From Devosia sp. YR412 (GTDB lineage Bacteria > Pseudomonadota > Alphaproteobacteria > Rhizobiales > Devosiaceae), in contig NZ_FOFL01000001.1 in the NCBI RefSeq assembly GCF_900110945.1, positions 682,001 through 746,000 on the forward strand: a stretch of DNA of 64,000 nucleotides, read 5' to 3'. The notes beneath the pieces are model-generated. The model ran no database searches, was not told the DNA's origin, and saw only the letters and a program-made list of their open reading frames with translations. Below, one piece after another: positions 19,735-39,568 of this stretch. Made by a program: the position numbers and the translations under genes. Numbering within the stretch: position 1 is the first letter of the stretch; the number at the start of each line of letters is the position of its first letter.

Positions 19735-21180
19735 ATGCGTGCCCTTGCCGATCAAACCCTGTTGCAGTCGCAAAGCTATATCAACGGCCAGTTTACCGGC
19801 GAGCCGAGCCTGCCGGTCACCAATCCCGCCACCGGCGAGATGGTCGGCCTTGTGCCCAATCTGGGCGCCGCGGAAGCCACGGCGGCCGTCGAGGCCGCCG
19901 CTGCCGCCTTCCACCCCTGGGCTGCAAAACCCGCCAAGGAGCGCAGCGTGCTGCTGCGCAAATGGTTCGAGCTGATCATCGCCAACCGCAATGACCTCGC
20001 CACTATCCTGACCAGCGAACAGGGCAAGCCCTTCGCCGAGGCGCTGGGCGAAATCGACTATGCCGCTTCTTACGTCGAATTTTACGCCGAAGAGGCCAAG
20101 CGGGTGGCCGGCGAACTGCTGCCCTCCCACCGCGCCGATGCCCGCATCATGGTGCTGCGCCAGCCGATCGGCGTGGTGGCCGCCATTACGCCGTGGAACT
20201 TCCCCGCCGCGATGATTACCCGCAAGGTCGGGCCGGCGCTGGCCGCGGGTTGTACCGTGGTGCTGAAGCCGGCGCCCGAAACGCCGCTGACCGCGCTGGC
20301 CCTAGCCGAACTGGCGCAGCGTGCCGGTTTCCCGGCTGGTACGCTCAATGTCGTCACCGGCGACGCGATTGCCATCGGCGGCGTGCTGACCAGCCATCCC
20401 AAGGTGCGGCTGGTCGGCTTCACCGGCTCGACCGAAGTCGGCAAGATCCTGATGCGCCAGGCGGCCGGCACGGTCAAGAAAGTGGCGCTGGAGCTGGGCG
20501 GCAATGCCCCCTTCATCGTGTTTGACGACGCCGATATCGACGCCGCTGTCGAGGGTGCCATGCTCTCGAAATTCCGCAACATGGGCCAGACCTGCGTCTG
20601 CACCAACCGCATCTATGTGCAGGACAAAATTCACGACGCCTTCGTTGCCAAACTGGTCGAACGCGTCCGTGCGCTCAAGGTCGGCGACGGCTTTGCCGAG
20701 GGTGTTGTGCAGGGCCCGCTGATCACCGAAGAGGCCATCACCAAGGTCGAGGCGCACATCGCCGACGCAGTATCCAAAGGCGCCTCAGTGGCGCTGGGCG
20801 GCAAGCGGCATAGCCTGGGTGGCACATTCTTCGAACCAACCGTGCTGACCGGCGTCACTGCTTCGGCCCAGCTGGCGCAGGAAGAAACCTTTGGCCCGCT
20901 GGCGCCGGTGTTCCGCTTCACGACCGAAGACGAGGTCGTGGCCGCCGCCAATGCAACCGAGACTGGCCTCGCCGCCTATTTCTATTCGCAGAACGCGGCG
21001 CGGCTGTTTCGAGTCATGGAGCGGCTCGAATATGGCATGGTGGGCATCAATACCGGCCTGATCTCCACCGAGCTCGCGCCGTTTGGCGGCGTCAAGGAAA
21101 GCGGCAATTCCCGCGAAGGCTCGAGCCACGGCATCCTCGAATTCACCGAGCTCAAATATGCCTGCATCGGCGGCCTCTAA
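19735..21180 (+). CDS. gabD: NAD(P)-dependent aldehyde dehydrogenase, succinate-semialdehyde dehydrogenase type
   Basis: 481-residue aldehyde dehydrogenase closest to GabD, oxidising succinate semialdehyde to succinate. Seen are [13 protein letters not shown], the general base Glu in [11 protein letters not shown] near residue 250, the nucleophile Cys in [11 protein letters not shown] near 285, and EETFGPLAP near 382. ATG 19735 is preceded by GGAG; the longer upstream open frame is antisense to the hydrolase. It is divergent from the imidase-like cluster and its stop overlaps the stop of the convergent glycosidase gene by four bases. Confidence 0.88.
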
Positions 21181-22691
21181 CCCCTCACTCGTGACCGCAC
21201 CCGGATCGCCAGCCCCGGCCGGCGCGGCAGCTTCACCGCGAAGGCTGCCGATGGCGCCTTGGCAATGCTGACCGCGCCATGCCGCACCGGATGGTTTTCC
21301 GGCGCCGGCACGATTTCGGCCGGCGTCACCGTCATGGCCCAGCTGTCGATCAGGTCAACTTCATAGTCGCCATCCACCTTGGGCAGGCCATAGGGCCAGA
21401 TTTCCGGCTGGTGCTCGCCCAGATAGATGATGGTGGTGTCGCCATCCGTCGCTGCGGAAATCCGCGACGAGAAGCGCACGCTGGCATCGACCGGCTCGAA
21501 GCCGTTTGTGACGCTCTCTTCGAGGATATCGCGCAAAAAGCCGATCCGCTGCCAGGCTTCGCCATGCAACTCGCCGCCCTTGGCCCACCAGATCAGGTCC
21601 TCCGGATGGCGGTAGGTCTCGCCATGCCCGGCATAGGCGCCGCGCAAGGCCATGGTCCAGAAGCGATGCACCAGTTCCTCGGCGGTGATATTGCCCCAGG
21701 CCTCGGTCAGATTGCCCTCATATTCGGGCTCGTCATTGACCACTGGCTTGCCATAGGCAGCGCGCCATTCCGGCGTTCGCTTGACGTCCCAATGCTGCAT
21801 GCAGACATGGCTGACCCAGGGCTGGCGGTGATCGTAATTGGCCGTGGGCGCGCCATTGTGGATCGAGGTAAGATGCCGATACGGATCGTTTTCCGCGATG
21901 ATCTGGAAGAAGCGGTCCCATTGCGCCATCGGCTTGGTGTCGAGCATGAAGTCATATTCATTCGCCAGCGCCCACCACACATTGGCATGGGCGCCAAGCC
22001 GCGCCACGAGATATTGCACATAGCGATAGTCCTGTTCCGCCGACATGCCGGAATAATTCCAGCGGTCATAGGGGTGGAACAGGATGACATCGGCCTCGAT
22101 GCCCAGCGCGCCCAGCGCCATCACCTGGGTTTCGAACTGCCGGAATGCCGCCGGGTTGGGCCGGTCGAAATCGAGCTCGCCGTCCGCGCCACGCTGATAG
22201 ACGTCATGCAGCGGCTCGTTGACATTGTAGGGATAGTCCTTGGGAAACACCCCCATCCGGACCTTGTTGAAGCGCGTCTTGGCCAGCGTCTCCAGCGTCT
22301 GCGCCTGCATCGCCAGCGGCTGATGCGTCCAGGCATAGCAGGTGGTGCCGAACGGCAGATAAGGCGTGCCATCGGCATGGGCGAAGTGGAACGTATTGGC
22401 CACCCGCACCGGACCATGCCGGCCGGGTAGCGGCGCGGTGACCGAAACCTCACCGCCCTGCCCGTCCGGCTCTGACGCATTGGATCTGGTGACGAAGCGC
22501 CAAATGCCCGGCTGGTCCGGCATGAAGCGGATCTTGTAGACGCCCTCGCCGTCATAAAAGCCCGGCACCCGAACCTGCCGCTCGCCCTGCTGGAACGTGG
22601 CCTCAAGCGTTACCTCCATGAAGGGGTTGCCCTCGCTTGGTCCGGTGAAACTGGCTTCGAACAGGCCCCATTGGGCGACGGAGGTGGTCAT
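21177..22691 (-). CDS. DUF5060/DUF4038-type glycoside hydrolase, apiosidase-like
   Basis: 504-residue protein with an N-terminal Ig-like DUF5060 (about 1-90), a DUF4038 TIM barrel (about 95-400) and a C-terminal beta domain like DUF5605. Candidate catalytic carboxylates are the Glu in WWALANEYDF near residue 240 and the one in VVNDEPEYEG near 320. DUF4038 proteins include the GH140 apiosidases. No signal peptide is seen, so it would act on imported oligosaccharides. It lies behind a sugar-binding-protein gene and near split transketolase, kinase and isomerase genes that fit D-apiose use. Other furanosidase or glycosidase specificities are possible. Confidence 0.8.
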   Translation of the reverse strand: MTTSVAQWGLFEASFTGPSEGNPFMEVTLEATFQQGERQVRVPGFYDGEGVYKIRFMPDQPGIWRFVTRSNASEPDGQGGEVSVTAPLPGRHGPVRVANTFHFAHADGTPYLPFGTTCYAWTHQPLAMQAQTLETLAKTRFNKVRMGVFPKDYPYNVNEPLHDVYQRGADGELDFDRPNPAAFRQFETQVMALGALGIEADVILFHPYDRWNYSGMSAEQDYRYVQYLVARLGAHANVWWALANEYDFMLDTKPMAQWDRFFQIIAENDPYRHLTSIHNGAPTANYDHRQPWVSHVCMQHWDVKRTPEWRAAYGKPVVNDEPEYEGNLTEAWGNITAEELVHRFWTMALRGAYAGHGETYRHPEDLIWWAKGGELHGEAWQRIGFLRDILEESVTNGFEPVDASVRFSSRISAATDGDTTIIYLGEHQPEIWPYGLPKVDGDYEVDLIDSWAMTVTPAEIVPAPENHPVRHGAVSIAKAPSAAFAVKLPRRPGLAIRVRSRVRG

Positions 22692-22723
22692 ATCTTTTCC
22701 TGTCAGGGCGCGGACCTTGTGCT

Positions 22724-22847
22724 CCCTCTCCCCTGAGGGGAGAGGGCGGGGTGAGGGGTTCAGCGGCTGGCGAATGCAACGTAGCCCAACAAAACACTGA
22801 ACCCCTCACCCGCCCCTACGGGGCGACCTCTCCCCTCAGGGTAGAGG
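22724..22847. repeat. composite intergenic palindromic repeat
   Basis: Nested inverted repeats. CCCTCTCCCC/GGGGAGAGGG at 22724-22746 comes first. The arms GGGTGAGGGGTTCAG (22749-22763) and CTGAACCCCTCACCC (22797-22811) enclose 33 bases. CGCCCC-TAC-GGGGCG (22811-22825) and ACCTCT/AGAGGT (22826-22847) follow. It fills most of the gap between the glycosidase gene and the binding-protein terminator. It resembles the GC-rich mosaic repeats scattered in alphaproteobacterial genomes. Confidence 0.75.
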
Positions 22848-22876
22848 TAAGCATCGGCTACCACTAAAAACAAAAT

Positions 22877-22898
22877 GGCCGGGCCTCTCGGCCCGGCC
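22877..22898 (-). terminator. rho-independent terminator of the sugar-binding-protein gene
   Basis: Perfect 9-bp stem GGCCGGGCC / GGCCCGGCC with a four-base loop. On the minus strand it is followed by ATTTTGTTTTT. It lies 21 bases beyond the binding-protein stop, so the glycosidase gene downstream is reached by read-through or from its own promoter. Confidence 0.9.
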
Positions 22899-22918
22899 TT
22901 CAATCTCATCGTCTAAAC

Positions 22919-24316
<1,398 letters not shown>

Positions 24317-25156
24317 CTACTTCGCCACAATCACCTCAATACCCCGCCGCTCGAACTCCGCACGGTCGACGTCGGTAATCCCGTCATCGGTAATCAGCCC
24401 GGCAATCACGTCGATCGGGCCCAGCGAGGAAAACGAGGTGCGGCCGATTTTTGTACTGTCGGCAACCAGATAAACCTTCGACGCCGCCTTGATCATGGCG
24501 CGCTTCACATAGAGATCCGCCATGGCCGGAAAGGTCAGCCCGGCTTCGAAACTCACCGCCGCCGTCGCGAGGAACAGCTTTTCGGCAAAGATGCCCTCAA
24601 AGAAATCGCCGGACTTTTCACCGGTCAGCGACAGCGTCGGCGCCTTGAACAGCCCACCCGACATATGCACCGTCATCGAGGGCAAAGCCCCCAGCGCCAA
24701 GGCAATATTGATCGAATTGGTGATGACATTGAGGCTGTCATGTCCCAGCAGATTGTTGGCAATCTCGGTCGTGGTCGAGCCGGAATCGAGGATAATGGTT
24801 TCGCCATTGCCGACAAGCGCCGCCGCGGCGCGGCCGATCTTTTTCTTGGCATCCATATTGGTCAGGTGGTGCAGCGACATCGACTGCACCTGCTGCGGCA
24901 TGGACTTCAAATAGGCTCCGCCATGCTCGCGCACCACATAGCCGTCATTGTCCAGCCGCTCGAGATCCTGGCGGATCGTCGCTTCCGAGACCGCAAATGC
25001 CACCGAAAGGTCGCGTACGCGGGCGCTGCCTTCTTCCTGCAGCCATTCGAGAATTTTCATCCGTCGCGGCTCGGCCAGCAGATTCAGTCGCGATGCGTCC
25101 GCATTGGGCTTGCGGCCCCGTTTGGCGGGCGTATCGCTGCTTTTGCTGTCGGCCAA
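24317..25156 (-). CDS. DeoR/GlpR-family transcriptional regulator
   Basis: 279-residue regulator. After a basic N-terminal tail (KRGRKPNAD), the DeoR winged helix spans about 30-85 (RRMKILEWL, VSEATIRQDLERLDNDGYVVREHGGAY). The sugar-phosphate sensor domain follows with DSGSTTTEIA near 120, ITNSINIA and LVADSTKIG near 235. It lies 29 bases after the sugar permease gene in the same direction, so it is probably made with the transporter. It likely represses this transporter and the divergent transketolase operon until a phosphorylated intermediate appears. Confidence 0.88.
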   Translation of the reverse strand: MADSKSSDTPAKRGRKPNADASRLNLLAEPRRMKILEWLQEEGSARVRDLSVAFAVSEATIRQDLERLDNDGYVVREHGGAYLKSMPQQVQSMSLHHLTNMDAKKKIGRAAAALVGNGETIILDSGSTTTEIANNLLGHDSLNVITNSINIALALGALPSMTVHMSGGLFKAPTLSLTGEKSGDFFEGIFAEKLFLATAAVSFEAGLTFPAMADLYVKRAMIKAASKVYLVADSTKIGRTSFSSLGPIDVIAGLITDDGITDVDRAEFERRGIEVIVAK

Positions 25157-25185
25157 GTCGTCGCTCCTTGCGTGCCGTTTGCGGC

Positions 25186-26232
25186 TTATGACTGGCGTGT
25201 ATTGGCCGCCAGCTTCCTTTGCAACTGATCGAGCACGACGGCGGCGATAATCACAAGTCCTTTGATGACCATTTGCCAGAATTCGGACACGCCCATCATC
25301 ACGAGGCCATCGCTGAGCACACCGATAACGAAGGCGCCGATGATGGTGCCGCCGATCAACCCCCTGCCCCCGCTCAAGGACGTGCCGCCGAGCACTGCCG
25401 CGGCAATGGCATTGAGCTCGAAGGTTTCGCCGCTGGCCGGATGCGAGGCCACCAACTGCGAGGAGACGATCAGCCCCACCACGGCGGCGCAGAAGCCCGA
25501 AATCATGTAGACGGCGATCTTGATGCGATCGACTCGCACGCCGCTCAGCGCCGCGGCGCGCTCATTGCCGCCCACGGCATAGACACGGCGGCCGAACGGG
25601 GTGCGCTGGGCCACATAGGCGGCGATCAGGGCCAGGACGATCAGGATGATGATCGACACCGGAATGCCCAGCACATTGCCCGAACCGATGATCGGATAGC
25701 CCTGGTTGCCCAGTTCCGGCTTGCCGACAAGGTTGGAGAAAGTCGAGCCGCCCGACAGCAGCAGGGCCGCGCCGCGTGCCACGTAAAGCGTGCCCAGCGT
25801 GGCGATAAACGGCGCCACTCCGAGCTTGGTTATGAGAAACCCGTTCACGGCTCCGATCGCCGTGCCCACCGCCAGGGCGATCAGGATCACCTCGATGACA
25901 CTGGGGTAGATCACCACGCCGAGCATGGGCAATTGCAGCCCATGCACCAGAAGGCCACCCGCCACCATGCCGGTGAGGCCGACAATGGAGCCGACCGACA
26001 AGTCGATGCCGCCGGTCAGGATGACATAGGTCATGCCGATGGCGAGGATGGCATTGATCGCCACATGCTTGGAAATGATCACCGCATTGGCGACGGAAAC
26101 GAAGTTCGGCGCCATCAGCGCGAAGAACAGCGTCACCACGATCAGCGCGATAAAAGTGCGCAGCTTGAGGACAAGCAGCAGGCCGGAGGCATTGCCCGAC
26201 GAGCCGGTATTGGCGGCAGTAGCAGTGGACAT
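25186..26232 (-). CDS. sugar ABC transporter permease (RbsC-like)
   Basis: 348-residue CUT2 permease with about eight to ten membrane helices. It has LTGGIDLSVGSIVGLTG near residue 75 and IAAAVLGGTSLSGGRGLIGGT near 280. Two in-frame ATGs are adjacent in codon order; the second (26232) stands five bases after AAGGAG and is preferred over 26235. It lies ten bases after the ATPase gene. With that ATPase, the DUF2291 lipoprotein and the binding protein at 22919-23860 it forms one importer. Confidence 0.87.
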   Translation of the reverse strand: MSTATAANTGSSGNASGLLLVLKLRTFIALIVVTLFFALMAPNFVSVANAVIISKHVAINAILAIGMTYVILTGGIDLSVGSIVGLTGMVAGGLLVHGLQLPMLGVVIYPSVIEVILIALAVGTAIGAVNGFLITKLGVAPFIATLGTLYVARGAALLLSGGSTFSNLVGKPELGNQGYPIIGSGNVLGIPVSIIILIVLALIAAYVAQRTPFGRRVYAVGGNERAAALSGVRVDRIKIAVYMISGFCAAVVGLIVSSQLVASHPASGETFELNAIAAAVLGGTSLSGGRGLIGGTIIGAFVIGVLSDGLVMMGVSEFWQMVIKGLVIIAAVVLDQLQRKLAANTRQS

Positions 26233-26241
26233 CATGGCTCC

Positions 26242-27765
26242 TTAGGCGAAAGCAGGTTTGTCGATTTTATGTGTGGAAGCGCGGACCAGCGCCTCGTCTG
26301 TTGCGTCTTCGGCGCGCAGGTCGGCGGTGATTTTTCCATAGGCCATGACCAGGATGCGATCGGCCACGGCATGGGTCTCTTTGAGATCCGAGGTCGTGTA
26401 GACAATTGCGAGGCCACTATCGGCGAGGTCGCGCATGGTCGAGAAAACCTCGGCCTTGGCGCCGATATCGATGCCGCGGCTGGGCTCGTCGAGCAGCAGT
26501 ACGCGCGGCTGGGTGAGCAGGCTCTTGCCGATCACCACCTTCTGCTGATTGCCGCCCGACAGCGAGGTGATCGGCGCATCGGCACTGGCGGTCTTGATAT
26601 GCAGCTGGCCGATGACCTCATCGAGCAGCGGCTTTTCATCAGCCTTGGAGATCGAGAAGAATTTGGTGAAGCGGCGCAGGCTGGCCAGCCCCAGATTGCC
26701 GCCAACGCTGAGATTTTGCACCAGGCCATCGCGCTGACGATCTTCCGGCACCAGCAGCAGGCCGGCCTTCATGCGGCGATTGACCGAATGCCCGGCCAGC
26801 TCCTTGCCCTCGAGCTTTACTGAACCCTTGGCGCCGCTGCGCAAGCCATAAAGGCTCTCGAACAATTCGGTGCGCCCGGCCCCGAGCAGGCCATAGATGG
26901 CGGTGATCTCGCCGGTGCGGAACGCCACCGAGACATCATCCACGGCCAGTCCAGCGCCACGGCGCGGCAGGCTGAGATGCTCTACCTCAAGAATGGCCGC
27001 CCCCGCCGGCGCTGCGGGCGGACGCTTGGCCACCATCTCGCCGGCACCGAGCATCTTCTCGATGATCCAGGGGATGGTCACCTCGGCGCGCGGCGCCGTG
27101 GCAGCCAGCCGCCCGTCGCGCAGCACAGTGAAATGATCGCCGATACGGATCAGCTCTTCGAGCCGATGCGAAATATAGATGATGGCCACGCCATTGCGCT
27201 TGAGCTCGCCGATCACCTTGAACAGCACTTCGACTTCCGAGGCCGACAGCGCCGAGGTCGGCTCGTCCATGATCAGGATGCGTGCATCCTCGGCCAGCGC
27301 CTTGGCGATCTCGACGATCTGCTGTTCGCCAATCATCAGATCGCCGACCAGCGCATCGGGGTCGATGGCATGCTCGAGCCGGCCGATCAGCTGTGTCGCG
27401 CGCGCCTTTTGTGCTGCGCGATCAATGTGAAAGCCGGCCTTGGTGATGTCGCGGCCGAGAAAGATATTCTCGGTGACGCTCATGTTCGGGCAGAGATTGA
27501 GCTCCTGGAAGACGATGCCGATGCCCTGGCTCGCCGCATCGCGGATCGAGGAAAAGCTGACCGTTTCGCCATGCATGGTGATGGTGCCCAGCGTCTGCCG
27601 CTCCACACCCGCCAGGATTTTCATCAAGGTCGACTTGCCGGCGCCATTCTCACCGATGAGAACATTGACCGCCCCGGCATGCACGTCGAAATCCACATCC
27701 TGCAATGCGATCGTACCCGGGAAAGCCTTGGTGATAGCCCGCGCGCTGAGAACGACGTCGCTCAT
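26242..27765 (-). CDS. sugar ABC transporter ATP-binding protein (RbsA-like)
   Basis: 507-residue tandem ATPase. Domain one shows Walker [10 protein letters not shown] and Walker [11 protein letters not shown]. Domain two shows the degenerate GLLGAGRTE, signature LSGGNQQKV and LLLDEPSRGIDIG. The ATG overlaps the stop of the DUF2291 gene by four bases, showing translational coupling. Part of the pentose-type importer of the 22-33 kb locus. Confidence 0.88.
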   Translation of the reverse strand: MSDVVLSARAITKAFPGTIALQDVDFDVHAGAVNVLIGENGAGKSTLMKILAGVERQTLGTITMHGETVSFSSIRDAASQGIGIVFQELNLCPNMSVTENIFLGRDITKAGFHIDRAAQKARATQLIGRLEHAIDPDALVGDLMIGEQQIVEIAKALAEDARILIMDEPTSALSASEVEVLFKVIGELKRNGVAIIYISHRLEELIRIGDHFTVLRDGRLAATAPRAEVTIPWIIEKMLGAGEMVAKRPPAAPAGAAILEVEHLSLPRRGAGLAVDDVSVAFRTGEITAIYGLLGAGRTELFESLYGLRSGAKGSVKLEGKELAGHSVNRRMKAGLLLVPEDRQRDGLVQNLSVGGNLGLASLRRFTKFFSISKADEKPLLDEVIGQLHIKTASADAPITSLSGGNQQKVVIGKSLLTQPRVLLLDEPSRGIDIGAKAEVFSTMRDLADSGLAIVYTTSDLKETHAVADRILVMAYGKITADLRAEDATDEALVRASTHKIDKPAFA

Positions 27766-28394
27766 GGCGCAGCCTTTTCCAGCGTCACCGGCGTCACCAG
27801 CAGTTTGTCGCTGGCCCCGGCGAGGCTCATCGCGCCAGTAAAGTTGACCGTATCGCCCACGGCAATGGCTTCAGCATTGCCGCTGAAGCCTTCCAGCGCC
27901 AGCGCCGTCAGCGCCTTGCCGACATCGGCATATTCGATCTGATTGGTGAAATCCTGGAAGGTCACAAAGGGCAGACCGTCGCGCACCGCATTGCCACGGA
28001 TCACCGGCCCAATCTGCAGCACCACCGGATCGGCAAGACCGTCCACCGCCACCTCAAGCGTCCCGGCCCGCGACTCGACATTCTTGGCGCTGACCACACC
28101 GGTCCCGCTGACGACAAAGCTCCAGGGCGACCCCTCGCCGGCCCGATACCCAAACTCCGCGCCCGCCGCCGCCAGATCCGCCCCAATCGCCGGCAGAACC
28201 TCCGCCACCGGCTTCGCCGCCTCAACAAAATGCGGCAAAGCACGCCCGGTCCACAGCTCCGCCGCATAGGCCTGGGCATTGAAACCAGCCGCCGCCGTCT
28301 CCGCCTCATCCGCAATCGGCAAAATTTTGCAACCACTCAGCGGCAGCACGGCGGCAAAAGCCAGTGCCAGGCAGGCCAGGCGCCGGTTAAACAT
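27762..28394 (-). CDS. DUF2291 lipoprotein associated with sugar importer
   Basis: 210-residue predicted lipoprotein. A positively charged start (MFNRR), a hydrophobic stretch and the lipobox LSGCK near residue 22 are followed by a periplasmic domain with WSFVVSGTGVVSAKN and VTFQDFTNQIEYADVG, as in DUF2291. Proteins of this family are found beside CUT2 sugar importers of alphaproteobacteria; their job is unknown to me. ATG 28394 is preceded by GAGGAG. It is the first gene of the minus-strand operon DUF2291-ATPase-permease-deoR, divergent from tktA. Confidence 0.83.
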   Translation of the reverse strand: MFNRRLACLALAFAAVLPLSGCKILPIADEAETAAAGFNAQAYAAELWTGRALPHFVEAAKPVAEVLPAIGADLAAAGAEFGYRAGEGSPWSFVVSGTGVVSAKNVESRAGTLEVAVDGLADPVVLQIGPVIRGNAVRDGLPFVTFQDFTNQIEYADVGKALTALALEGFSGNAEAIAVGDTVNFTGAMSLAGASDKLLVTPVTLEKAAP

Positions 28395-28435
28395 CGTCAG
28401 AACTCCTCGTCTCGCATCGCCGACCATTCGGTTCG

Positions 28436-28453
28436 TTGCGATTATTTGCGATT
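28436..28453. promoter_or_regulatory. helically phased direct repeats in the divergent promoter, candidate DeoR site
   Basis: TTGCGATT occurs at 28436-28443 and again at 28446-28453, ten bases (one helical turn) apart, with a further TTGCGA at 28495-28500. Repeated half-sites between two divergent operons that share a pathway suit a single regulator, most simply the DeoR protein of this locus. The rest of the 267-base gap holds AT-rich sequence but no other named element. Confidence 0.45.
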
Positions 28454-28661
28454 TTGCATTTGTGCGGCTGGAAAATCGCGCTGTCAATGTGGATTTGCGA
28501 CCTATCAACACCACAACATGCCGAAAAACCCTGCGAATTCGGGTGTCCCAGCGAATCCGCAGAAATCGAAAATATTCTCGTTGCGATGACGGCGAGCCGA
28601 GGTTAGTTTGCCGGTAACACGCCAGATCGGGCCACGCGCCCGGCGCGACAGGAAAAGCCAA

Positions 28662-29501
28662 GTGTCCCTAACTGCACAAAGCCACCGCAACGATCTCGTT
28701 GCCACGATTGCCGAAAAGGCGCTGTGGATTCGCCGCCGCAGCTTCCAGATGGTCTATGAAGCCCAGCAAGGCCACCCCGGCGGCGACTTCAGCGCCACCG
28801 ATGTGCTGGCCGCGCTGTATTTCGGCGTCATGCGCTATGACCCCAAGCGGCCCAATGACCCGGCACGCGATCGCTTCGTGATGAGCAAGGGCCATTGCAC
28901 CGGCGCCTTCTATTCGGTGCTGGCCGCAGCCGGCTATTTCCCCGAGGCCGAACTCAGCGACTATATGAAGCCGCTAAGCAAGCTCAACGGCCATCCCAAC
29001 CGCAACTATCTGCCGGGTGTAGAGACCAATACCGGCCCGCTGGGCCACGGCCTGCCGGTGGCGCTGGGCATTGCCATTGCTGGTCAGATCGACAATTCCG
29101 ACTTCCGCACTTTCGTGCTGACCGGCGACGGTGAGCTTCAGGAAGGCAGCAATTGGGAAGCGGCGCTGACCGCCGGCCATCGCAAGCTGGAAAACCTGAC
29201 GCTGATCATCGACCGCAACCGGCTGCAGCAGGGCGCGCGCACCGAGGAAACCGCCTCGCTCGACCCGCTCGACGACAAGTGGCGCGCCTTTGGCTGGCAT
29301 GTCGAAATGATCGACGGCCATGACCACCAGCAATTGCTCGATGTGCTTTCGGCATCGCCCAAGGGTCGCGGCAAGCCGCTCTGCGTTATTGCCAATACAT
29401 TCAAGGGCAAGGGCGTCAGCTTCATGCATGATAACGTCGCCTGGCACCACGGCGTGCCCACCAAGGAACAATACGAACAAGCCATGGCGGAACTGGTCTG
29501 A
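28662..29501 (+). CDS. transketolase, N-terminal subunit (apulose-4-phosphate transketolase-type)
   Basis: 279-residue TPP-binding half of a split transketolase: GHPGGDFSATDVLAAL near residue 35, SKGHCTGAFYSVLAAAGYF near 75, GPLGHGLPVALG near 125, and the cofactor motif TGDGELQEGSNWEA near 150 with LIIDRNRLQ. Start GTG 28662 is chosen because AGGAAAAG stands just before it. The next gene supplies the pyrimidine-binding half, joined by TGATG. Split transketolases occur in D-apulose 4-phosphate cleavage (AplA/AplB) and in sulfoquinovose breakdown; the neighbours favour the former. Confidence 0.85.
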   Translation: MSLTAQSHRNDLVATIAEKALWIRRRSFQMVYEAQQGHPGGDFSATDVLAALYFGVMRYDPKRPNDPARDRFVMSKGHCTGAFYSVLAAAGYFPEAELSDYMKPLSKLNGHPNRNYLPGVETNTGPLGHGLPVALGIAIAGQIDNSDFRTFVLTGDGELQEGSNWEAALTAGHRKLENLTLIIDRNRLQQGARTEETASLDPLDDKWRAFGWHVEMIDGHDHQQLLDVLSASPKGRGKPLCVIANTFKGKGVSFMHDNVAWHHGVPTKEQYEQAMAELV

Positions 29502-30457
29502 TGAGCGCTGCAGCCCCCAATAAAGCCGGCATGTTCGACTGCCGCGACAGCTTTGCCGCCACGATCGAAGATCTGGCCGCCAATGATCCCCGCATCGTCA
29601 CCGTGGTGAGCGACAGCGTCGGCTCCTCCAAGCTCGGCGGCTTCAAGAAGAAGTGGCCCGAGCGCATGGTCAATGTCGGCATTGCCGAACAGACCGTGGT
29701 TGCCGTTGGCGCCGGTCTCGCCAATGGCGGCAAGATTCCCTTTGTCTCCGCTGCCTCGTGCTTCCTCACGGCCCGCTCGCTGGAGCAGATCAAGGCCGAC
29801 ATTGCCTATTCCAATGTCAATGTGAAGCTGATCGGCCAGTCGTCCGGCGTCGCCTATGGCGAACTCGGGCCGACCCATCATTCCATCGAAGACATGGCCT
29901 GGCTGCGCCTCCTCACCAATCTCACCATCATCGTACCGGCCGATCCCTGGCAGACCGAGCAGGCGATCCGCGCTGCCGCTGCCATGACCGGGCCGGTCTA
30001 TGTCCGCGTCAGCCGCATGCCGGTGCCGGCGCTCGAGCGCGGCAATGGCACGTTCGAGATCGGCAAGGCCGAGACGCTGGTCGAAGGCGATCAGGCGACC
30101 ATCATCGCCAATGGCACCATGGTGCATCGCGCTGTGGCAGCCGCAAAAACCCTCGCCGTCGAAGGCATTGCGGTGCGCGTCGTCAACATGGCGACGATCA
30201 GCCCGTTCGATGAAGCGGCGATCCTGGCCGCCAGCGAAACCGGTGCCATTGTCACCGTCGAGGAAGGCAATATCCGCGGCGGCCTTGGCGGCGCGGTGGC
30301 CGAAGTGGTCACCGCCAATATCCCCGTGCCGATGCGCATCATGGGCTTTCCCGGCTTTGTGCCGACCGGTTCGGCCGATTTCCTGATGGAGCATTTCGGC
30401 CTGACCGAAGCCGGCATCGCCGACGCCGTGCGTCAGACCATCGCGCGCAAGAAATGA
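29501..30457 (+). CDS. transketolase, C-terminal subunit (apulose-4-phosphate transketolase-type)
   Basis: 318-residue pyrimidine-binding and C-terminal domains of the split transketolase. Seen are the catalytic Glu in VGIAEQTVVAVGAGLA near residue 65, ARSLEQIKADIAY, GPTHHSIEDMAWLR near 125 and VEEGNIRGGLGG near 255. It begins at the stop of the first subunit (TGATG) and overlaps the kinase start by four bases (ATGA), so the subunits are made together with kinase and isomerase. The separation into two genes is normal for this subfamily, not a frameshift. Confidence 0.85.
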   Translation: MSAAAPNKAGMFDCRDSFAATIEDLAANDPRIVTVVSDSVGSSKLGGFKKKWPERMVNVGIAEQTVVAVGAGLANGGKIPFVSAASCFLTARSLEQIKADIAYSNVNVKLIGQSSGVAYGELGPTHHSIEDMAWLRLLTNLTIIVPADPWQTEQAIRAAAAMTGPVYVRVSRMPVPALERGNGTFEIGKAETLVEGDQATIIANGTMVHRAVAAAKTLAVEGIAVRVVNMATISPFDEAAILAASETGAIVTVEEGNIRGGLGGAVAEVVTANIPVPMRIMGFPGFVPTGSADFLMEHFGLTEAGIADAVRQTIARKK

Positions 30458-31932
30458 GTTCTGCCGGCCTCGTCCTCGCCATCGACCAGGGCACCACCAA
30501 TACCAAGGCCTTGCTAGTCTCGGCCGATGGTCGGGTCCAGCATCAGGCCTCGGCGCCCAATGTCGTGACCTATCCGCAGCCCAGCTGGGCCGAGCAATCG
30601 GCCACGGCACTGGTCGAAGGCGTGCGCCAGGTGATTGCCGAAGTGGTGGCTAAGGCCAATGGCGCGGACATTCTCGCCGTCGCCATTTCCAACCAGCGCG
30701 AATCCATCGTGGTGTGGGATGCCGCAACGGGCGAGCCGATCGGCCCCTGCGTTATCTGGCAGTGCCGCCGCTCGGCGCCGAAATGCGAAAGCCTGCGGGA
30801 TGCCGGCCATGCCGCGCTCATCGAAGGCAAGACTGGTCTGGCCCTCGACCCGCTGTTCCCGGCCGGCAAGATCGCCTGGCTGCTCGACAATACACCCGAT
30901 GCCCGTGACCGCGCAGAACGGGGCGAACTCCGGGTCGGTACGGTCGATAGCTGGCTGCTGTGGAACCTGACCGGCGGCACGGTGCATGCCACCGATCATT
31001 CCAATGCCTCGCGCACCCAGCTGTTCAACACCGAGACGCTCGCCTGGGATGAAGAACTGGCGGCGCTGTTCGATGTACCGCTGTCCATGCTGGCCGACGT
31101 CCGCTCGTCGGACAGCGCGTTTGGCCATGTGGCCGACGGCGCGCTCGCTGGCATTCCGATCCACGCAATGATCGGCGACTCCCATGCCGCCCTGTTCGGC
31201 CATGGCGTGCGCACGCCGGGCACGGTCAAGGCTACCTATGGCACCGGCACTTCGCTGATGGCGTTGACGCCGGAGCGCGTGCTGTCCAGCCATGGCCTCT
31301 CCAGCACCATTGCCTGGAGCCAGGACGGCAAGGTCGCCCATGCGCTCGAAGGCAATATTTCCGTCTCCGGCCAAGCTGCCGCCTTCATGGCGCAGATGCT
31401 GGGCCTGACTGACGCCGCCGCCCTCTCCGCCCTCGCCGAAAGCGTGGGCGATAGCAATGGTGCGGCCTTCGTCCCGGCGCTTGTCGGCCTCGGCGCCCCG
31501 CATTGGCGCTCCGATGCCCGCGGCACCATTACCGGCCTGTCGCTGGGCACCACGCCCGCCCATCTGGCCCGGGCAGCACTTGAAGCCATCGCTTTTCAGG
31601 TTGCCGACGTGTTTTCCGCCATGGAGCAGGACATGGGTGCGCCCATGGCCGAATTGCGTGCCGATGGCGGCGCTTCGCGCAACGACTTCCTGATGCAGTT
31701 CCAGGCCGATATCCTGGACCGCAGCGTTGCCACCGCCGCTGCGCCCGAAGTCAGCGCGCTTGGCGCTGCGGCTTTGGCCTTTGCCGGCCTCGGCATAGCG
31801 ATGACACCGATCCCGGCGGCCGGCCAGCATGATCCGGCCATGAGCGACAGTGACCGCGCCGCGCATCTTGCGCGCTGGCATGGCGCCATTGCCCAGACCC
31901 TGACGACACACAATAACGGAGGAAAATCATGA
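30454..31932 (+). CDS. FGGY-family carbohydrate kinase (glycerol-kinase-like, candidate apulose kinase)
   Basis: 492-residue FGGY kinase. The first ATP motif is [13 protein letters not shown] at the N terminus. Further signatures are [10 protein letters not shown] near residue 85, [14 protein letters not shown] near 165, [12 protein letters not shown] near 240, GTGTSLMAL near 262 and [17 protein letters not shown] near 405. In sequence it leans towards the glycerol-kinase branch. The ATG overlaps tktB, and its stop overlaps the isomerase gene by four bases. In the proposed pathway it would phosphorylate D-apulose at C4; xylulose-, erythritol- or glycerol-type substrates are alternatives. Confidence 0.85.
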
Positions 31933-32909
31933 GCAACCAGCGTTACGGCGCCGGCATCTGGCACTTTGCCACCTATGTCGACCGCTATGCCACCGACGGC
32001 TATGGCCCGCCGCGCAGCGTTATCGAAGCCATCGACATTGCCGGCCAGGTCAAGGACCTCTCGGTCGTCGACATCAACTACCCCTATTTCGGCGGTGAGT
32101 TCTCCAAGGAACAGATCAAGGTCGCGCTCGACCGCAACAATCTGTCGGTCATCGGCATCACGCCCGAAATCTATACCCGCGAATTCGCCAAGGGCGCCTT
32201 CACCAATCCCGACGCCGGCGTGCGCCGCCGCGCCCATGAGCTGATCACCGAAGCGGCCGATCAGGTGCGCTATTTCGGCGCCGACTATGTCAAGCTCTGG
32301 CCCGGCCAGGACGGCTGGGACTATCCCTTCCAGGTCGATCACGGCACGCTGTGGAAGCATTCGCTTGATGGCGTCGGCCAGCTGGCCAGCGAAAACCCCG
32401 ACGTCAAGTTCGTCATCGAGTACAAGCCGCGCGAGCCGCGCGTGCACATGAGCTTTGACTCCCTCTCGCGCACCCTGCTCGGCATCGAAAAGATCGGCTT
32501 GCCCAATGTCGGCATCCTGCTCGATTTCGGCCACGCCCTGTTCGGCGGCGAGTCTGCAGCCGACTCTGCACAGATGGCCATCGACTACGGCCGGCTGTTC
32601 GGCATGGACGTCAACGACAACTACCGATCCTGGGACGATGATCTGGTCGCCGGCAGCCTGCACCCGATCGAGCTGTTCGAATTCTTCTACGTGCTGCGCA
32701 AAAACAAGTGGGAAGGCGTCTGGCAGCTCGACCAGTTCCCGTTCCGCGAAGACAGCGTTGCGACTGCCACCCATGCCATCGACTTCCTCAAGGCCGCCGG
32801 CCGTGGCCTCGACGTGCTCGATATCGACGCGCTCAAGGAAGCCCAGAGCAAGCATGACGCCATCGGCGCGCTCAAGATCGCCCAGAAGGCCCTGTTCAGC
32901 TCGTTCTGA
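31929..32909 (+). CDS. sugar isomerase, xylose-isomerase-like TIM barrel (candidate apiose isomerase)
   Basis: 326-residue AP-endonuclease-2-like barrel, last gene of the transketolase-kinase operon. Probable metal-site stretches are [19 protein letters not shown] near residue 120, [15 protein letters not shown] near 160, [13 protein letters not shown] near 198, and [14 protein letters not shown] near 222. AGGAGG-like sequence precedes the ATG. It is paralogous to the isomerase at 9871-10860. An aldose-ketose isomerisation feeding the kinase is the straightforward role. Confidence 0.82.
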
Positions 32910-32977: not shown

Positions 32978-34060
<1,083 letters not shown>

Positions 34061-34064
34061 GGTT

Positions 34065-34892
34065 CTATCCTTTGACGGCGCCTGCGGTCATTCCAGCCAC
34101 GATCTGCCTGTTGAAGAACAGGAAGACGATGAGCGGCGGAATGGTGATCAGCAGGATGTTGGTGAAGAGCAGGTTGTAGGCGGTGCTGAACTGGCTCTGG
34201 AAATTGTAGAGCGTCAGCTGCACCGTCGCATTGCCATTGCCCGGCAGGTAATACAGCGGGTTAGTGAAGTCGTTGAAGATGCCGACCGACTGCACCACGA
34301 TATTGGTGACGGTCACCGGCCAGAGCAGCGGCAGCACGATGCGGAAGAACACGTCCAGCGGCCGAGCGCCATCGATCACCGCCGCCTCGTCCAGCTCGCG
34401 CGGAATGGTGGCGATGAAGGCGCGATAGAGGATGATCGAGAATGGCAGATTATAGGCTACTTCGATCAGGATCATGCCATGCAGCGTGCCGAAGAGCTTC
34501 AAGCCCTGCAGCAGCCAGATGGTCGGAACCACGGCGGGCGGGATCATCAACCCGGCAAGGATCAGGAACTCGATCAAGCCGTTGAAGCGCGTCTTGCGGC
34601 GGGCCAGCACGAAGCCGACCATGGCGGCAAAGACGATCAGCAGCGTCACGCTGACCACGGTGATCAGGGTGGAATTGATGAAGGCGGTGATCATCATCCA
34701 GTTTCGGGTCTTCACCACCTCGAAGATATTGTCGAAGAGGTGAAAGCCATTGGGCCAGGAGAAATCGCGCAGCGCCGACTGCTGCCGATCCTTGAAGGCC
34801 ATCAGGATGATGAACAGGAACGGGATGACGAAGACCACAAAGGTGGCGGCGATGGCGGCAAAACCACCAATGATGGAGGTGCGCTGCTTCAT
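34065..34892 (-). CDS. CUT1 sugar ABC transporter permease (MalG type)
   Basis: 275-residue permease with six predicted membrane helices. The EAA-loop region [25 protein letters not shown] near residue 185 contacts the ATPase, and [11 protein letters not shown] follows. ATG 34892 is chosen; its first codons overlap the end of the partner permease by four bases. The C terminus MTAGAVKG is the usual end of MalG-type proteins. Confidence 0.92.
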
Positions 34893-35779
34893 TCGAAGCC
34901 CTGCTTGCGATTGAGGAACATGGTCAGCGGCACGACCAGCACCGCGATGAGGATGAAGAGCACCACATTGCCGGCGGTGGACAGGCCATAAAAGCCGGCC
35001 TGATACTGCTTGTAGATCACCGAAGCGACGGTATCGGAGGCAAAGCCCGGTCCGCCCTTGGTCATGGCCCATATCAGATCGAAGGTGCGCAAGCCGCCGA
35101 TGAAGCTGAGGGTGATGACGGTGGCGGTGGCCGGACGGCTGAGCGGCAGCGTCACATAAAAGAAGTTCTGCAAAGGCGTCGCGCCATCGATGCGGGCGGC
35201 TTCGTAGTAATCCTTGGGAATGGCGACGAGGCCGGCGATGTAGATCACCGTAGCGAGGCCTACGCCCTTCCACACATCGACCAGGGCGACCGAGAACAGC
35301 GCAAGCTTGGGATCAACCAGCCAGCCTGGCCCCTTGATGCCGATCAGCGACAGCGCCTCGTTGATCATGCCATTGGTGGGATGCATCAACACTGTAAAGG
35401 TCATGCCGACGCCGACCGTCGAGACCAGCACCGGAAAGAAGATCACCGAGCGCAGATAGCCGCGGCCCATGATCTGGCTGGTCAGCATCAGTGCCAGCAA
35501 CATGCCGAGCACCACCTTGAGGCCCGAGCTGATCGCGGCATAGACCACGGTGTTGACCAGGCCCTGGATGAGAAAGGGCTCGCGGAAGAATTGCGCGAAG
35601 TTCTCGAAGCCGATGAACACGGCGCTGGAAAGGCTCCAGCGCGTCAAGCTGAAATAGAGCGACGCAAAGGTCGGCGCCAGAAACAGCACGGCGTAGATCA
35701 CCGCAGCCGGGGCATAGAACCAGCTAGGATAGAGAGACCGGCGCTGGGCTTTGAGCGCGGGAGCAGCAGCAGCCGTCAT
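34889..35779 (-). CDS. CUT1 sugar ABC transporter permease (MalF type)
   Basis: 296-residue permease with six predicted membrane helices. It opens with a basic N terminus and YPSWFYAPAAVIYAVLFLAPT. The EAA motif reads YYEAARIDGATPLQNFFYVTLPL near residue 205. It pairs with the MalG-type permease through a four-base overlap and follows the binding-protein gene after a strong hairpin. Confidence 0.92.
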   Translation of the reverse strand: MTAAAAPALKAQRRSLYPSWFYAPAAVIYAVLFLAPTFASLYFSLTRWSLSSAVFIGFENFAQFFREPFLIQGLVNTVVYAAISSGLKVVLGMLLALMLTSQIMGRGYLRSVIFFPVLVSTVGVGMTFTVLMHPTNGMINEALSLIGIKGPGWLVDPKLALFSVALVDVWKGVGLATVIYIAGLVAIPKDYYEAARIDGATPLQNFFYVTLPLSRPATATVITLSFIGGLRTFDLIWAMTKGGPGFASDTVASVIYKQYQAGFYGLSTAGNVVLFILIAVLVVPLTMFLNRKQGFE

Positions 35780-35801
35780 GGGAAACCTCGCAACACAGGA
35801 C

Positions 35802-35827
35802 GGCTCCGGAGGATGACCTCCGGAGCC
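35802..35827 (-). other. strong hairpin between binding-protein and permease genes
   Basis: Perfect 11-bp stem GGCTCCGGAGG / CCTCCGGAGCC with loop ATGA, in the 67-base gap after the binding-protein stop. No T tract follows on the minus strand, so it probably stabilises the binding-protein mRNA and lowers expression of the membrane genes. Confidence 0.75.
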
Positions 35828-35846
35828 TCGGCGATATCAGATGCGC

Positions 35847-37136
35847 TTACCAGCCTTCGAGACCGAGCTGCTGGGCCTGCTTGCGGACGTCTTCGTCATA
35901 GAGCGCAGCACCTTCGGCAGCCGGACGGATGCCCGAACCGACTTCAACGGTGATCTGCTCGAGTGCCGGGCCCTTGACCGGCGACAGGAACTCGAGAGCG
36001 GGAGCGTTCTGGCCGCCTTCGGCAAAGTAGGGCAGCATGTCGGAAACGGCCGGCGGCACGTCAGCCGGCAGTTCGCAACCGGCAATCATATAGGGACCGG
36101 TGGCGCCGACGGCTTCGTTGCGAATATCGCAGCCTTCGGGGCTGGCGATAAAGCCGATGAAGTCCTTGGCCAGATCCGGGCTGCTGGTGGTCTTGGCGGC
36201 ATAGATCGAGTCCGGCATCCAGGTGGTCAGGCCGTTCTTGGCGGCATCGTCGCCGGGCTGGGCGAAGAAACCGACGTCCTGCAGATGATCCGGAATAGTC
36301 TCGGCAATGGCGCCGACGCCGAAGGTCAGCATCGGGTAGTGTGCACCCTCGCCCGTGGCGACCATGCGGAGGCCGTCGGGATAGGTCGCAGCGCCAAAGT
36401 CTTCATTCAGATAGCCGGCCTCGAACACGGCCTGCAGCTTTTCAAAGCCGCGGACTGCTGCCGGGGTGGTGGCGAACTTGGCTTCATTGGCGGTGAACTT
36501 CTCAGCAAAATCCGGCACTTCGGCAAGGACGTTGAAGAAATCGGCCAGCACGAACAACTGGCTGGTCCAGCTCTCGCCATAGGTCTGGATCACGGCAACC
36601 TTGCCGGCCGCCTTGATCTTTTCATTGTTGGCCATGAACTCGTCCCAGGTCTTGGGAACTTCGAGGCCAAGCTCTGCATAGAGCGGGATATTGTAGAAAA
36701 TGCCGCCGCCCATGGCTGGCGCGAACGGCGCGCCATAGACTTCGCCGCCGGCAGAGACGACGCTCTTGAAGCTGTCCTGGACATTGGCCTGGAAGGGCGC
36801 ATCGGTCAGGGGCAGCAGGTTCTGTGTCGGGTTGAGCGCCTGGAACAGCGAGCCCGAATTGTAGAAGAACACGTCGGCCATCGCGCCGGTGGCGAGGCGG
36901 GTCTTGACGATATTGTCGCCTTCACCGCCGCCGGGGCGCACTTCGATATCGATGGTCACGTCCGGATTGGCTTCGGTGTAAGCGGCGACCCAGGCTTCGG
37001 CCACGGCAACCGACTGCGGGCCGTTGTCGATCAGGAACGACAGATAGCCCGACTGCTGGGCCTGGACGGCATGCGATGCCATCATCAGACCCAGTGTGCT
37101 GGCGCCCATCAGGGCAAAAAGTTTCGTCTTGGTCAT
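35847..37136 (-). CDS. CUT1 sugar ABC transporter substrate-binding protein
   Basis: 429-residue extracellular solute-binding protein family 1. The signal peptide ends at AVQAQ near residue 26. The mature protein shows AWVAAYTEANPDVTIDIEV, ADVFFYNSGSLFQAL near 90, YGAPFAPAMGGGIFYN near 135 and PKTWDEFMANNEKIK near 165. It is the first gene of the CUT1 transporter operon and lies 59 bases after the GH78 gene, in the same direction. Its ligand is therefore probably a rhamnose-containing oligosaccharide or rhamnoside. Confidence 0.9.
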   Translation of the reverse strand: MTKTKLFALMGASTLGLMMASHAVQAQQSGYLSFLIDNGPQSVAVAEAWVAAYTEANPDVTIDIEVRPGGGEGDNIVKTRLATGAMADVFFYNSGSLFQALNPTQNLLPLTDAPFQANVQDSFKSVVSAGGEVYGAPFAPAMGGGIFYNIPLYAELGLEVPKTWDEFMANNEKIKAAGKVAVIQTYGESWTSQLFVLADFFNVLAEVPDFAEKFTANEAKFATTPAAVRGFEKLQAVFEAGYLNEDFGAATYPDGLRMVATGEGAHYPMLTFGVGAIAETIPDHLQDVGFFAQPGDDAAKNGLTTWMPDSIYAAKTTSSPDLAKDFIGFIASPEGCDIRNEAVGATGPYMIAGCELPADVPPAVSDMLPYFAEGGQNAPALEFLSPVKGPALEQITVEVGSGIRPAAEGAALYDEDVRKQAQQLGLEGW

Positions 37137-37195: not shown

Positions 37196-39568
37196 TTATG
37201 GCGTGCGCGCGTTGATCTCCGGGCCACGCTCGAATGTCGGGGCGGGCACGGTATAGTTGAACGTGACGACATGACGGCCGGCAGTGAGCGCCTGATCGGC
37301 GCCTTCGGCAAGAGCCGCACCGTCGAGCTTTGCATCGCGATAGGCTTTGGACAGGCGCAGCGTGCCGCGGGCGCCTTGTGGCACCTCGATGTCGTAGCGC
37401 ACCTTGTCGCCATCCAGCGTCCAGCCTGCCTTGATCAGGCCGGCGGGGCTCTCGTGGCTTGCCGCCACCGGCGACAGGCCATCGAGGATCACCGGCTCAA
37501 AAATGACGTGCTGGAAGGCAGGCGCCTTCTCGTCCGGCCGGAAGCCGGCGACACCTTCGAGCAGCCACTGGCAGACAGCGCCATAGGCATAGTGATTGTA
37601 GGAATTCATCTGCGGATTGTAGATTGAGCCGTCAGCCTGGATAGCGTCCCAGCGTTCCCAGATGGTCGTTGCGCCCATCTTGACCTGATAGAGCCAGCCC
37701 GGGACTTCTTCCTGCAGAAAGACTTCGCCGGCCATGCCCTGCTCGTCCAGTTTTACCAGCGCCGGCAGCAGCGCCGGCGTGCCGATGAAGCCAGTGCCGA
37801 TACGGCCGTCGGTGCGATGGATGGCATTTTTGAAATAGGCCTTGGCCGCCTCATGCTTGTCGGCCGGGATCAGGTCATGCAGGAACGCCAGCGCATAGGA
37901 CGTCTGGTCGTCGCCCGCGACGCGACCGGCCGGGGTGATAAATTCGCGGGCGAAGGCGTCCTTGACCTTGGCGGCCATCGCGCTCATTCGCTCGGCAGTT
38001 GCCGTGTCGCCGACAATGGTGGCAATTTTGCTGACCAGTGCCGAGGTGATGTGCAGGTAAAGCGTTGCCGCCGCATCGTCGCTGATGGTGGGCAGCGGCT
38101 TGGCGCTCGGCCCGCTTGGCTGCAGCCAGTCGCCGAAGGAGAAGCCACGGGCGCCCCAGGCGCGCGGCGGCTTGACGATCGGGCCCTCGCTGATCGACCA
38201 GACGAAATCCACCCACTTGACCATGGCCGGCAGGGTTTCGGCCAGGATTTCGGTGTCACCATAGTGCAGGTACAGCTGCCACGGCACCACGGCGATGGCA
38301 TCGCCCCAGCCGGTTGAGCCATAAAAACCCGGATAGTCAGCAGGCTTCATTTTGGTGGGATCGGGCACGACATGGGGCACCGCGCCATCGTCGCGCTGGT
38401 CAGCCATCACGTCGCGGATCCACTTGCGGAAGAAGCCGCGCGTCTCGGCCAGATACATGGCTGTGCTGGCAAACACCTGTGCGTCGCCGGTCCAGCCCAG
38501 GCGCTCGTCGCGCTGCGGGCAATCGGTCGGCACTTCGATGAAATTGCCGCGCTGCGACCAGACGGTATTGAGGAACAGCCGATCGACTAGCGGATTGGCC
38601 GAGGTGAAGCTCGACTTGATTTCATTGACCGAACTGATTGGCACCGAGACCACGCTGATCAGCTCGGCCTTGCCGGTGATGGTGACGCGGGCATAGCGGA
38701 AGCCGTGGAAGGTGAAGTGCGGGCGGAATGCCTCGTCACCCGTCCCGGCCAGCGTATAGTCGACGATCGCCTCAGCGGTGCGGTAATTGACGTTGTAGAA
38801 ATTGCCGTCCTTGTCGAGCACTTCGGCATGTTCCACCAGGACCTTGGCGCCAGCCTCGCCACGCACGGTGAAGGCAACATAGCCGCCGACATTCTGGCCG
38901 AAGTCGAATACCGGGCGTCCTTCGGCATCATTCCACTGCTTGACCACGGGCAGCACGTCGAGTTCGCGTACCGGCGTGGTTTCATGCGCCACCAGGCGTG
39001 TCTGGTCGAAGCTGATGACTGCGCTGCCGGCAGAGACCTTCGGCGCGATGCGCGCATCGTAGCGTTCGCCGAAATAGATGCCGGATTTCTGGATCGGCAG
39101 CTCGCCACTTTCCCAGCCGGCATCGGTGGCCAGCAGCACGTCGGCGCCGCTGTGCAGTTCGGCGATGGCGGCGATCTCATCGCCCCAGGTGTTGAAGATC
39201 GGTGCCTTGCCCCACATCATCTTCGAGCGTAGCCAGCCATCGGCCAGCCAGATGTCTATAGAGTTCTCGCCCGCCACCAGCAGGTCGGTGACATCATAGG
39301 TTTGGTAGCTCAGGCGGGTATCGTAGCTGGTCCAGCCGGGCGTCAGAATGTCCTTGCCGACGCGCTGGCCGTTGATGAAGCAGATATAGAGCCCCAGCGC
39401 GCTGATACGCAGCTGTTCGTGGCCGGAAACTGCATTCAGCGAGAAGCTCTTGCGCAGGAAAGAAGCCGGAGTGCCGACACCCTGATCGCTCAGCGGGCGA
39501 ACCATCTTGGCGGTCCAGCCGGTGCGCGCGGATTTGGTAGTGGCGTCGAAAACTGCGGCATCAGACAC
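37196..39568 (-). CDS. GH78 alpha-L-rhamnosidase
   Basis: 790-residue GH78-like enzyme removing terminal alpha-L-rhamnose. N-terminal beta-sandwich domains (about 1-290, FLRKSFSL, ALGLYICFINGQRVG) precede the (alpha/alpha)6 catalytic domain with the general-acid region VPTDCPQRDERLGWTGDA near residue 350, FSFGDWLQPSG near 480 and GATTIWERWDA near 625; a C-terminal beta domain follows. The start is GTG 39568, with GGAGG eight bases upstream; the longer frame runs into the divergent LacI promoter. No signal peptide, so it should act on imported rhamnosides. It heads the operon feeding the CUT1 genes. Confidence 0.9.
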   Translation of the reverse strand: MSDAAVFDATTKSARTGWTAKMVRPLSDQGVGTPASFLRKSFSLNAVSGHEQLRISALGLYICFINGQRVGKDILTPGWTSYDTRLSYQTYDVTDLLVAGENSIDIWLADGWLRSKMMWGKAPIFNTWGDEIAAIAELHSGADVLLATDAGWESGELPIQKSGIYFGERYDARIAPKVSAGSAVISFDQTRLVAHETTPVRELDVLPVVKQWNDAEGRPVFDFGQNVGGYVAFTVRGEAGAKVLVEHAEVLDKDGNFYNVNYRTAEAIVDYTLAGTGDEAFRPHFTFHGFRYARVTITGKAELISVVSVPISSVNEIKSSFTSANPLVDRLFLNTVWSQRGNFIEVPTDCPQRDERLGWTGDAQVFASTAMYLAETRGFFRKWIRDVMADQRDDGAVPHVVPDPTKMKPADYPGFYGSTGWGDAIAVVPWQLYLHYGDTEILAETLPAMVKWVDFVWSISEGPIVKPPRAWGARGFSFGDWLQPSGPSAKPLPTISDDAAATLYLHITSALVSKIATIVGDTATAERMSAMAAKVKDAFAREFITPAGRVAGDDQTSYALAFLHDLIPADKHEAAKAYFKNAIHRTDGRIGTGFIGTPALLPALVKLDEQGMAGEVFLQEEVPGWLYQVKMGATTIWERWDAIQADGSIYNPQMNSYNHYAYGAVCQWLLEGVAGFRPDEKAPAFQHVIFEPVILDGLSPVAASHESPAGLIKAGWTLDGDKVRYDIEVPQGARGTLRLSKAYRDAKLDGAALAEGADQALTAGRHVVTFNYTVPAPTFERGPEINARTP

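Follow-up and report, generated by a model that had tools for sequence, protein, structure and literature searches.

A probable D-apiose utilisation locus with its own intracellular glycosidase in Devosia sp. YR412

A probable transketolase-type apiose locus

The 64,000-nucleotide stretch of Devosia sp. YR412 analysed here (the window; contig NZ_FOFL01000001.1, positions 682,001 to 746,000) carries, at 21177-32909, ten genes that probably constitute a transketolase-type D-apiose utilisation system with its own intracellular glycosidase. Judged by its relatives, the locus is likely to serve the use of apiose, a branched-chain plant sugar that is a key component of the pectin rhamnogalacturonan II (RG-II) and of many plant glycosides. 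The transketolase locus as such is already known; what is new is the probably intracellular glycosidase, which may represent a cytoplasmic apiosidase family distinct from GH140. The solved apiosidases met in fold comparison are GH140 enzymes.

All ten genes named in a preliminary description of this DNA were found in two divergent sets, and each is backed by Pfam. The minus-strand set runs from a DUF2291 lipoprotein through CUT2 ATPase, permease, DeoR regulator and CUT2 binding protein to the glycosidase. The plus-strand operon consists of the N- and C-terminal halves of a split transketolase, an FGGY kinase and a TIM-barrel isomerase. Its description as fully overlapping was correct, with overlaps of 1 base (29501), 4 bases (30454-30457) and 4 bases (31929-31932) at the three junctions. 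The genes are:

21177..22691, minus strand: candidate cytoplasmic apioside hydrolase, DUF5060 + PF13204 (Apiosidase-like) + DUF5605 (Pfam; nearest structure 4n0r)
22919..23860, minus strand: CUT2 substrate-binding protein, D-apiose type (open reading frame to 23899, ATG at 23860; 78% identical to R. etli RHE_RS26605)
24317..25156, minus strand: DeoR/GlpR-type regulator (HTH_DeoR + DeoRC; 63% identical to the Rhizobium sp. SL42 counterpart)
25186..26235, minus strand: CUT2 permease (PF02653; 66-69% identical to three rhizobial counterparts, 57% to that of E. coli SE15)
26242..27765, minus strand: CUT2 ATPase with two ABC domains (PF00005, two stretches)
27762..28394, minus strand: DUF2291 lipoprotein (PF10054; listed open reading frame to 28661, likely start 28394)
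28662..29501, plus strand: transketolase N-terminal subunit, AplA/AptA-like (PF00456; open reading frame from TTG 28608, GTG 28662 likelier)
29501..30457, plus strand: transketolase C-terminal subunit, AplB/AptB-like (PF02779 + PF02780)
30454..31932, plus strand: FGGY kinase of the AplK (apulose kinase) clade (42.5% identical to SE15 AplK; trees)
31929..32909, plus strand: TIM-barrel isomerase, probably of D-apiose isomerase (ApsI) type (PF01261; 3ktc; 88% identical to the SL42 counterpart)

Rhizobium sp. SL42 has the same kinds of gene minus the glycosidase, and the Devosia genomes G222 and G291 have the full set including the glycosidase, arranged differently. Because the set recurs in these three genomes, the arrangement in the window is not a product of chance.

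Pathway enzymes

Comparison with the E. coli SE15 cluster yielded identities of 42.5% between the window kinase and AplK (ECSF_RS02700), 46% between the transketolase N-half and AptA (ECSF_RS02710) and 41% between the C-half and AptB (ECSF_RS02715). The two transketolase halves are 73% and 65% identical to their SL42 counterparts. PMC13001218 takes the three SE15 genes as aplK, aptA and aptB and reports growth on D-apiose for ST131 and STc14 strains bearing the SE15-type cluster, SE15 belonging to ST131.

Glycerol kinase GlpK is 39.8% identical to the window kinase, so close to the value for AplK that pairwise identity alone is indecisive and the kinase tree decides. In a tree of 25 rows, SE15 AplK fell into one group with the window kinase and the relatives of the latter (support 99/99), apart from GlpK, with EryA and XylB distant. 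Support for the AplK group was 84/100 in a tree of 30 rows without EryA, in which the placement beside GlpK of the L168 and L181 kinases, both from glycosidase loci of non-Proteobacteria or of unknown phylum, was unsettled. The tree ruled out a glycerol kinase; erythritol and xylulose kinases were ruled out by the tree together with identities of 25-27% to EryA and XylB. Clustering with xylulose or erythritol kinases, which the preliminary description had named as speaking against its own proposal, was thus not seen, and the relationship to AplK, AptA and AptB held up.

In the tree of the transketolase N-half, for which the program warned of long branches, SE15 AptA pairs with proteins from two genomes of the same order as the window (G175 and G316) and not directly with the window clade. 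The transketolase genes of G175 and G316 adjoin an apiose-type binding protein.

The sole PDB match of the isomerase at E<=1e-60 was 3ktc (440 bits), which we take to be the Pectobacterium D-apiose isomerase. OiaX had no match in the host's own genome of 3.83 Mb. The oxidative OiaX route was therefore rejected for this genome, which leaves the transketolase route as the probable outlet. DUF2291 was rejected as a marker of apiose loci, since it also occurs in an FGGY/TIM-barrel locus on pRL12 that is presumably an erythritol locus.

The CUT2 binding protein

RHE_RS26605 of R. etli, to which the window binding protein is 78% identical, lies in a cluster that also carries OiaX. In the PDB, 5ibq and 4ry0 come closest to the binding protein, at 472-473 bits. 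We assume that 5ibq holds D-apiose; the record title of 4ry0 refers to RHE_PF00037 of R. etli, a ribose transporter binding protein, and public records annotate relatives of the binding protein as D-ribose proteins. The structure model of the window protein was mediocre (pLDDT 72.7). Palindromic repeats flank the gene at 22725-22847 and 24141-24261, with arms of 21-24 and 49 bases. The D-apiose transketolase route that had been proposed for the locus is thus backed by its binding protein, its isomerase, its kinase and the two halves of its transketolase.

A putative cytoplasmic glycosidase outside GH140

DUF5060, PF13204 and DUF5605 all scored over the Pfam cut-off in the glycosidase. PF13204 reached 64.3 bits (cut-off 26.5), compared with 311 and 356 bits in two GH140-type proteins of a phylum sample. 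Its three domains and the fold of 4n0r place the enzyme with the DUF5060-PF13204-DUF5605 proteins of the 4n0r type. The candidate catalytic pair Glu245/Glu321 is invariant in 18 sequences and aligned with the GH140 catalytic positions, Glu245 occupying the position of the catalytic Asp187 of BT1012 (GH140). In the profile alignment, Y119 aligns with Trp63 and Y324 with Tyr287 of GH140, so that both positions are aromatic in the window enzyme too.

PDB sequence searches with phmmer (E<=0.001) and hmmsearch (E<=10) matched 4n0r only and no solved GH140 enzyme. GH140 structures were reached by fold or profile comparison only, through a weak profile link (probability 93%), and identity to BT1012 and 8t9w in fold alignments was 14-15%. 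With GH140 the enzyme has in common the PF13204 domain, which is over its cut-off. Membership of GH140 was rejected by sequence, with Glu in place of the catalytic Asp, other flanking domains and 4n0r as the only match.

A simple hydrophobicity scan, not a trained predictor, revealed no hydrophobic leader in the window glycosidase, and no upstream start was found; a secreted enzyme was rejected for the window protein on these grounds. The enzyme should act inside the cell, and the absence of a leader points to cleavage after uptake, not before. The reverse order suggested earlier, in which apiose is freed and then imported, is probably wrong. One relative, in genome G591, does have a hydrophobic leader. 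There a GH140-type gene and the leader-bearing DUF5060-type gene (L184 and L189; G591:C7:808298-812051) have their PF13204 domains about 2 kb apart.

Association of the glycosidase with apiose genes

Among 75 Devosia genomes, the glycosidase was found in 35, a kinase orthologue in 36 and both in 32, leaving three with the glycosidase only and four with the kinase only (Fisher 1.9e-13, uncorrected for relatedness). The glycosidase thus occurred in 32 of 36 kinase-bearing genomes and 3 of 39 without kinase, and the kinase in 32 of 35 glycosidase-bearing genomes and 4 of 40 others. Both genes resided on one contig in 28 of the 32 genomes, 3.6-13.5 kb apart, and on separate contigs in four; this linkage count covers kinases of at least 68% identity; excluded were rows of 41-50%, one further copy in G717 and the majority of second glycosidase copies. 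In three of the 28 pairs the glycosidase is a second-type copy (49-51% identity). In many Devosia genomes, a second copy about 50% identical to the first lies just upstream of it (L040, L038, L034, L036).

The CUT2 binding protein was present in only 10 of the 75 genomes, all of them with the kinase and nine with it nearby, in searches that scored limited candidates (at most 29 per genome in the Devosia set, at most five in the order set below). The pathway is therefore accompanied more consistently by the glycosidase than by the free-sugar importer.

Across 397 genomes of the order, 23 had the glycosidase, 40 the apiose-type binding protein and 18 both (Fisher 4.5e-16, relatedness again uncorrected). 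Read by eye, the glycosidase neighbourhoods contain a CUT1 operon in 16 of the 23 genomes and adjoin two Opp-type ATPase genes in five (Pfam for one). The remaining two are the window, where the glycosidase is beside CUT2 genes, and G005, where it is beside a broken transketolase operon. This decaying apiose operon (L033:11191-13095) has a truncated transketolase N-half, a C-half broken near its end and a kinase cut to about 92 residues; the isomerase was not found there and the adjoining glycosidase is intact.

At least 587 relatives of the glycosidase occur among the named genomes, and the best 80 were examined with their flanks. Two or more of five oxidative-route markers were seen in 27. 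The transketolase-route loci comprise 10 with at least two markers of that route and 7 stretches with the N-half only (7/17). Three further loci had one marker and 33 none, ten of the latter being stretches of less than 21 kb. In the majority of the 27 oxidative-route loci, the markers seen are ApnL and a Gfo/Idh/MocA protein; OiaX itself was found in 8 of the 80, most Rhizobium stretches ending before it. The glycosidase adjoins oxidative-route genes in Rhizobium, Mesorhizobium, Paenibacillus ginsengihumi and an Acidobacteriota metagenome-assembled genome (MAG), and split transketolases in an Anaerolineae MAG and a Limnochordia MAG (3.4 kb contig). By record title, the positives outside the Alphaproteobacteria are P. 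ginsengihumi and the Acidobacteriota, Anaerolineae and Limnochordia MAGs; an uncultured-bacterium MAG was also positive. Glycosidase and apiose genes are thus found together well beyond the window locus, across Devosia, Rhizobium and other bacteria.

Chance would be expected to place about one or fewer of the 80 loci near apiose genes, because an apiose locus occupies well under 1% of such genomes. The R. johnstonii neighbours are regarded as apiose enzymes on the strength of curated models for ApnL and OiaX, whose cut-offs both proteins pass; the OiaK-like kinase falls below its own. That the glycosidase is linked to two unrelated downstream routes suggests that it delivers the element they share, apiose.

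Proposed pathway and competing explanations

From gene content, homology, clade placement, linkage and the missing hydrophobic leader, all directly observed, we infer the following catalytic steps, ligands, apioside importer and regulation. Free D-apiose would enter via the CUT2 importer, and apiosides via a different ABC importer, which in relatives is of Opp-type or CUT1. The DUF5060-PF13204-DUF5605 enzyme most likely hydrolyses apiosides in the cytoplasm once they have been taken up, by means of its Glu/Glu pair, and most likely represents a family outside GH140. The TIM-barrel enzyme would convert D-apiose to D-apulose, which the FGGY kinase would phosphorylate to apulose 4-phosphate. The split transketolase would then pass two carbons on to glyceraldehyde 3-phosphate, so that dihydroxyacetone phosphate and xylulose 5-phosphate are formed. 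Regulation of the locus would fall to the DeoR protein.

A wider proposal, to which we assign an even chance, is that DUF5060-PF13204(Glu)-DUF5605 proteins of several phyla are intracellular apioside hydrolases outside GH140 that work with one or the other of two unrelated apiose routes. In Devosia, where most genomes lack the CUT2 free-sugar importer, most apiose would for that reason be imported as apioside and freed in the cell. If true, a second, cytoplasmic apiosidase family would explain apioside use by soil and root bacteria, and a large unnamed protein family would gain a likely role.

With the apiose pathway itself correct, the glycosidase might instead remove another sugar (such as glucose, mannose or galactose) from apiose glycosides and so be a helper and not an apiosidase. 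We consider this rather unlikely, as the enzyme follows two chemically unrelated apiose routes and its Y119 and Y324 keep two positions of the GH140 site aromatic. The ribose labels of 4ry0 and of the binding-protein relatives would fit a pathway for another pentose or branched sugar (such as ribose or apiitol) merely resembling the apiose route, and a sister class of 11 transketolase-kinase loci, with two short-chain dehydrogenases/reductases (SDRs) and another binding protein, indicates that such enzymes can serve other inputs. Such a pathway is nevertheless improbable here: binding proteins of the same type accompany OiaX, and in R. johnstonii ApnL as well, both apiose enzymes by curated model, and the window isomerase is of the 3ktc type. 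A transketolase-type apiose locus with an intracellular glycosidase is still the explanation that we prefer.

A third alternative concerns the genes next to the isomerase:

32978..37136, minus strand: CUT1 importer with MalK-type ATPase, two permeases and SBP_bac_1 (Pfam; second permease by similarity), possibly associated, putative function
37196..39751, minus strand: GH78-type alpha-L-rhamnosidase (Bac_rhamnosid domains), possibly associated

Pfam covers the ATPase, one permease and the binding protein of this cassette. Its nearest gene is convergent with the isomerase gene, and 68 bases lie between the end of the former and the stop codon of the latter. In G005, G291 and G357, relatives of the cassette stand beside the apiose locus. 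A joint role of cassette and apiose locus is possible because RG-II contains rhamnose-alpha1,3-apiose-beta1,2-galacturonic acid, which, according to PMC7939467, is cut by an alpha-rhamnosidase and a beta-apiosidase. Glycosidase and cassette would then act as parts of one larger system on fragments of pectin (RG-II) or glycosides that contain rhamnose and apiose. The presence of a GH78 relative within 25 kb of kinase or glycosidase in 13 Devosia genomes favours this idea; GH78 is, however, common in the genus (53 of 75 genomes) and unlinked in 40 of the 53, and the window CUT1 permeases are only 32-33% identical to the glycosidase-linked CUT1 permeases of R. johnstonii. On balance, we find a single larger system doubtful.

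Elsewhere in the window, a DUF2264 protein adjoins Opp-type importer genes at 44789-49827, another possible glycan locus. The genes for a thiamine diphosphate enzyme, a CUT2 importer, a xylose-isomerase-like protein, an RpiR regulator and a PfkB kinase at 9-16280 presumably form an inositol locus.

Comparison with known systems

Among the papers searched, none joined Devosia with apiose and none apiose, Rhizobium and rhamnosidase; DUF5060 turned up in one, which deals with Lactobacillus, and DUF4038, PF13204, DUF5605 or BVU_0362 in two.

D-apiose degradation I of Pectobacterium and Escherichia (MetaCyc PWY-8089) proceeds, according to PMC13001218, via apiose isomerase, AplK and AptA/AptB, and the Pectobacterium route has an apiose isomerase, to which the window isomerase probably corresponds. 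A CUT2 importer with DUF2291, an FGGY kinase and a split transketolase are common to this system (SE15) and the window, which adds the intracellular glycosidase and the DeoR regulator. In E. coli SE15, two SDRs take the place of the isomerase of the window.

SDRs 54-69% identical to those of the SE15 apiose cluster define the second class of loci with split transketolase and FGGY kinase (L084-L094, 11 loci, one of them in Devosia, G332). Their CUT2 binding protein differs, being 27-34% identical to the apiose or erythritol ones, and they perhaps serve apiitol or another branched polyol.

The GH140 enzymes BT1012 and 8t9w differ from the window glycosidase, which has Glu for Asp, DUF5060 and DUF5605 domains and no leader. 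4n0r is BVU_0362 of Bacteroides vulgatus, a putative glycoside hydrolase whose record title gives no function.

The plasmid locus of Rhizobium sp. SL42 (L005) shares enzymes, importer, DeoR regulator and the two divergent sets with the window; its gene order differs, and no glycosidase is among the annotated features of the stretch. The oxidative locus on R. johnstonii pRL12 (OiaX, OiaK-like kinase, ApnL) shares the type of CUT2 binding protein (78% identity) and a glycosidase 66% identical to that of the window. In contrast to the window, its downstream enzymes belong to the OiaX route and not to the transketolase route, and its glycosidase lies in a CUT1 operon.

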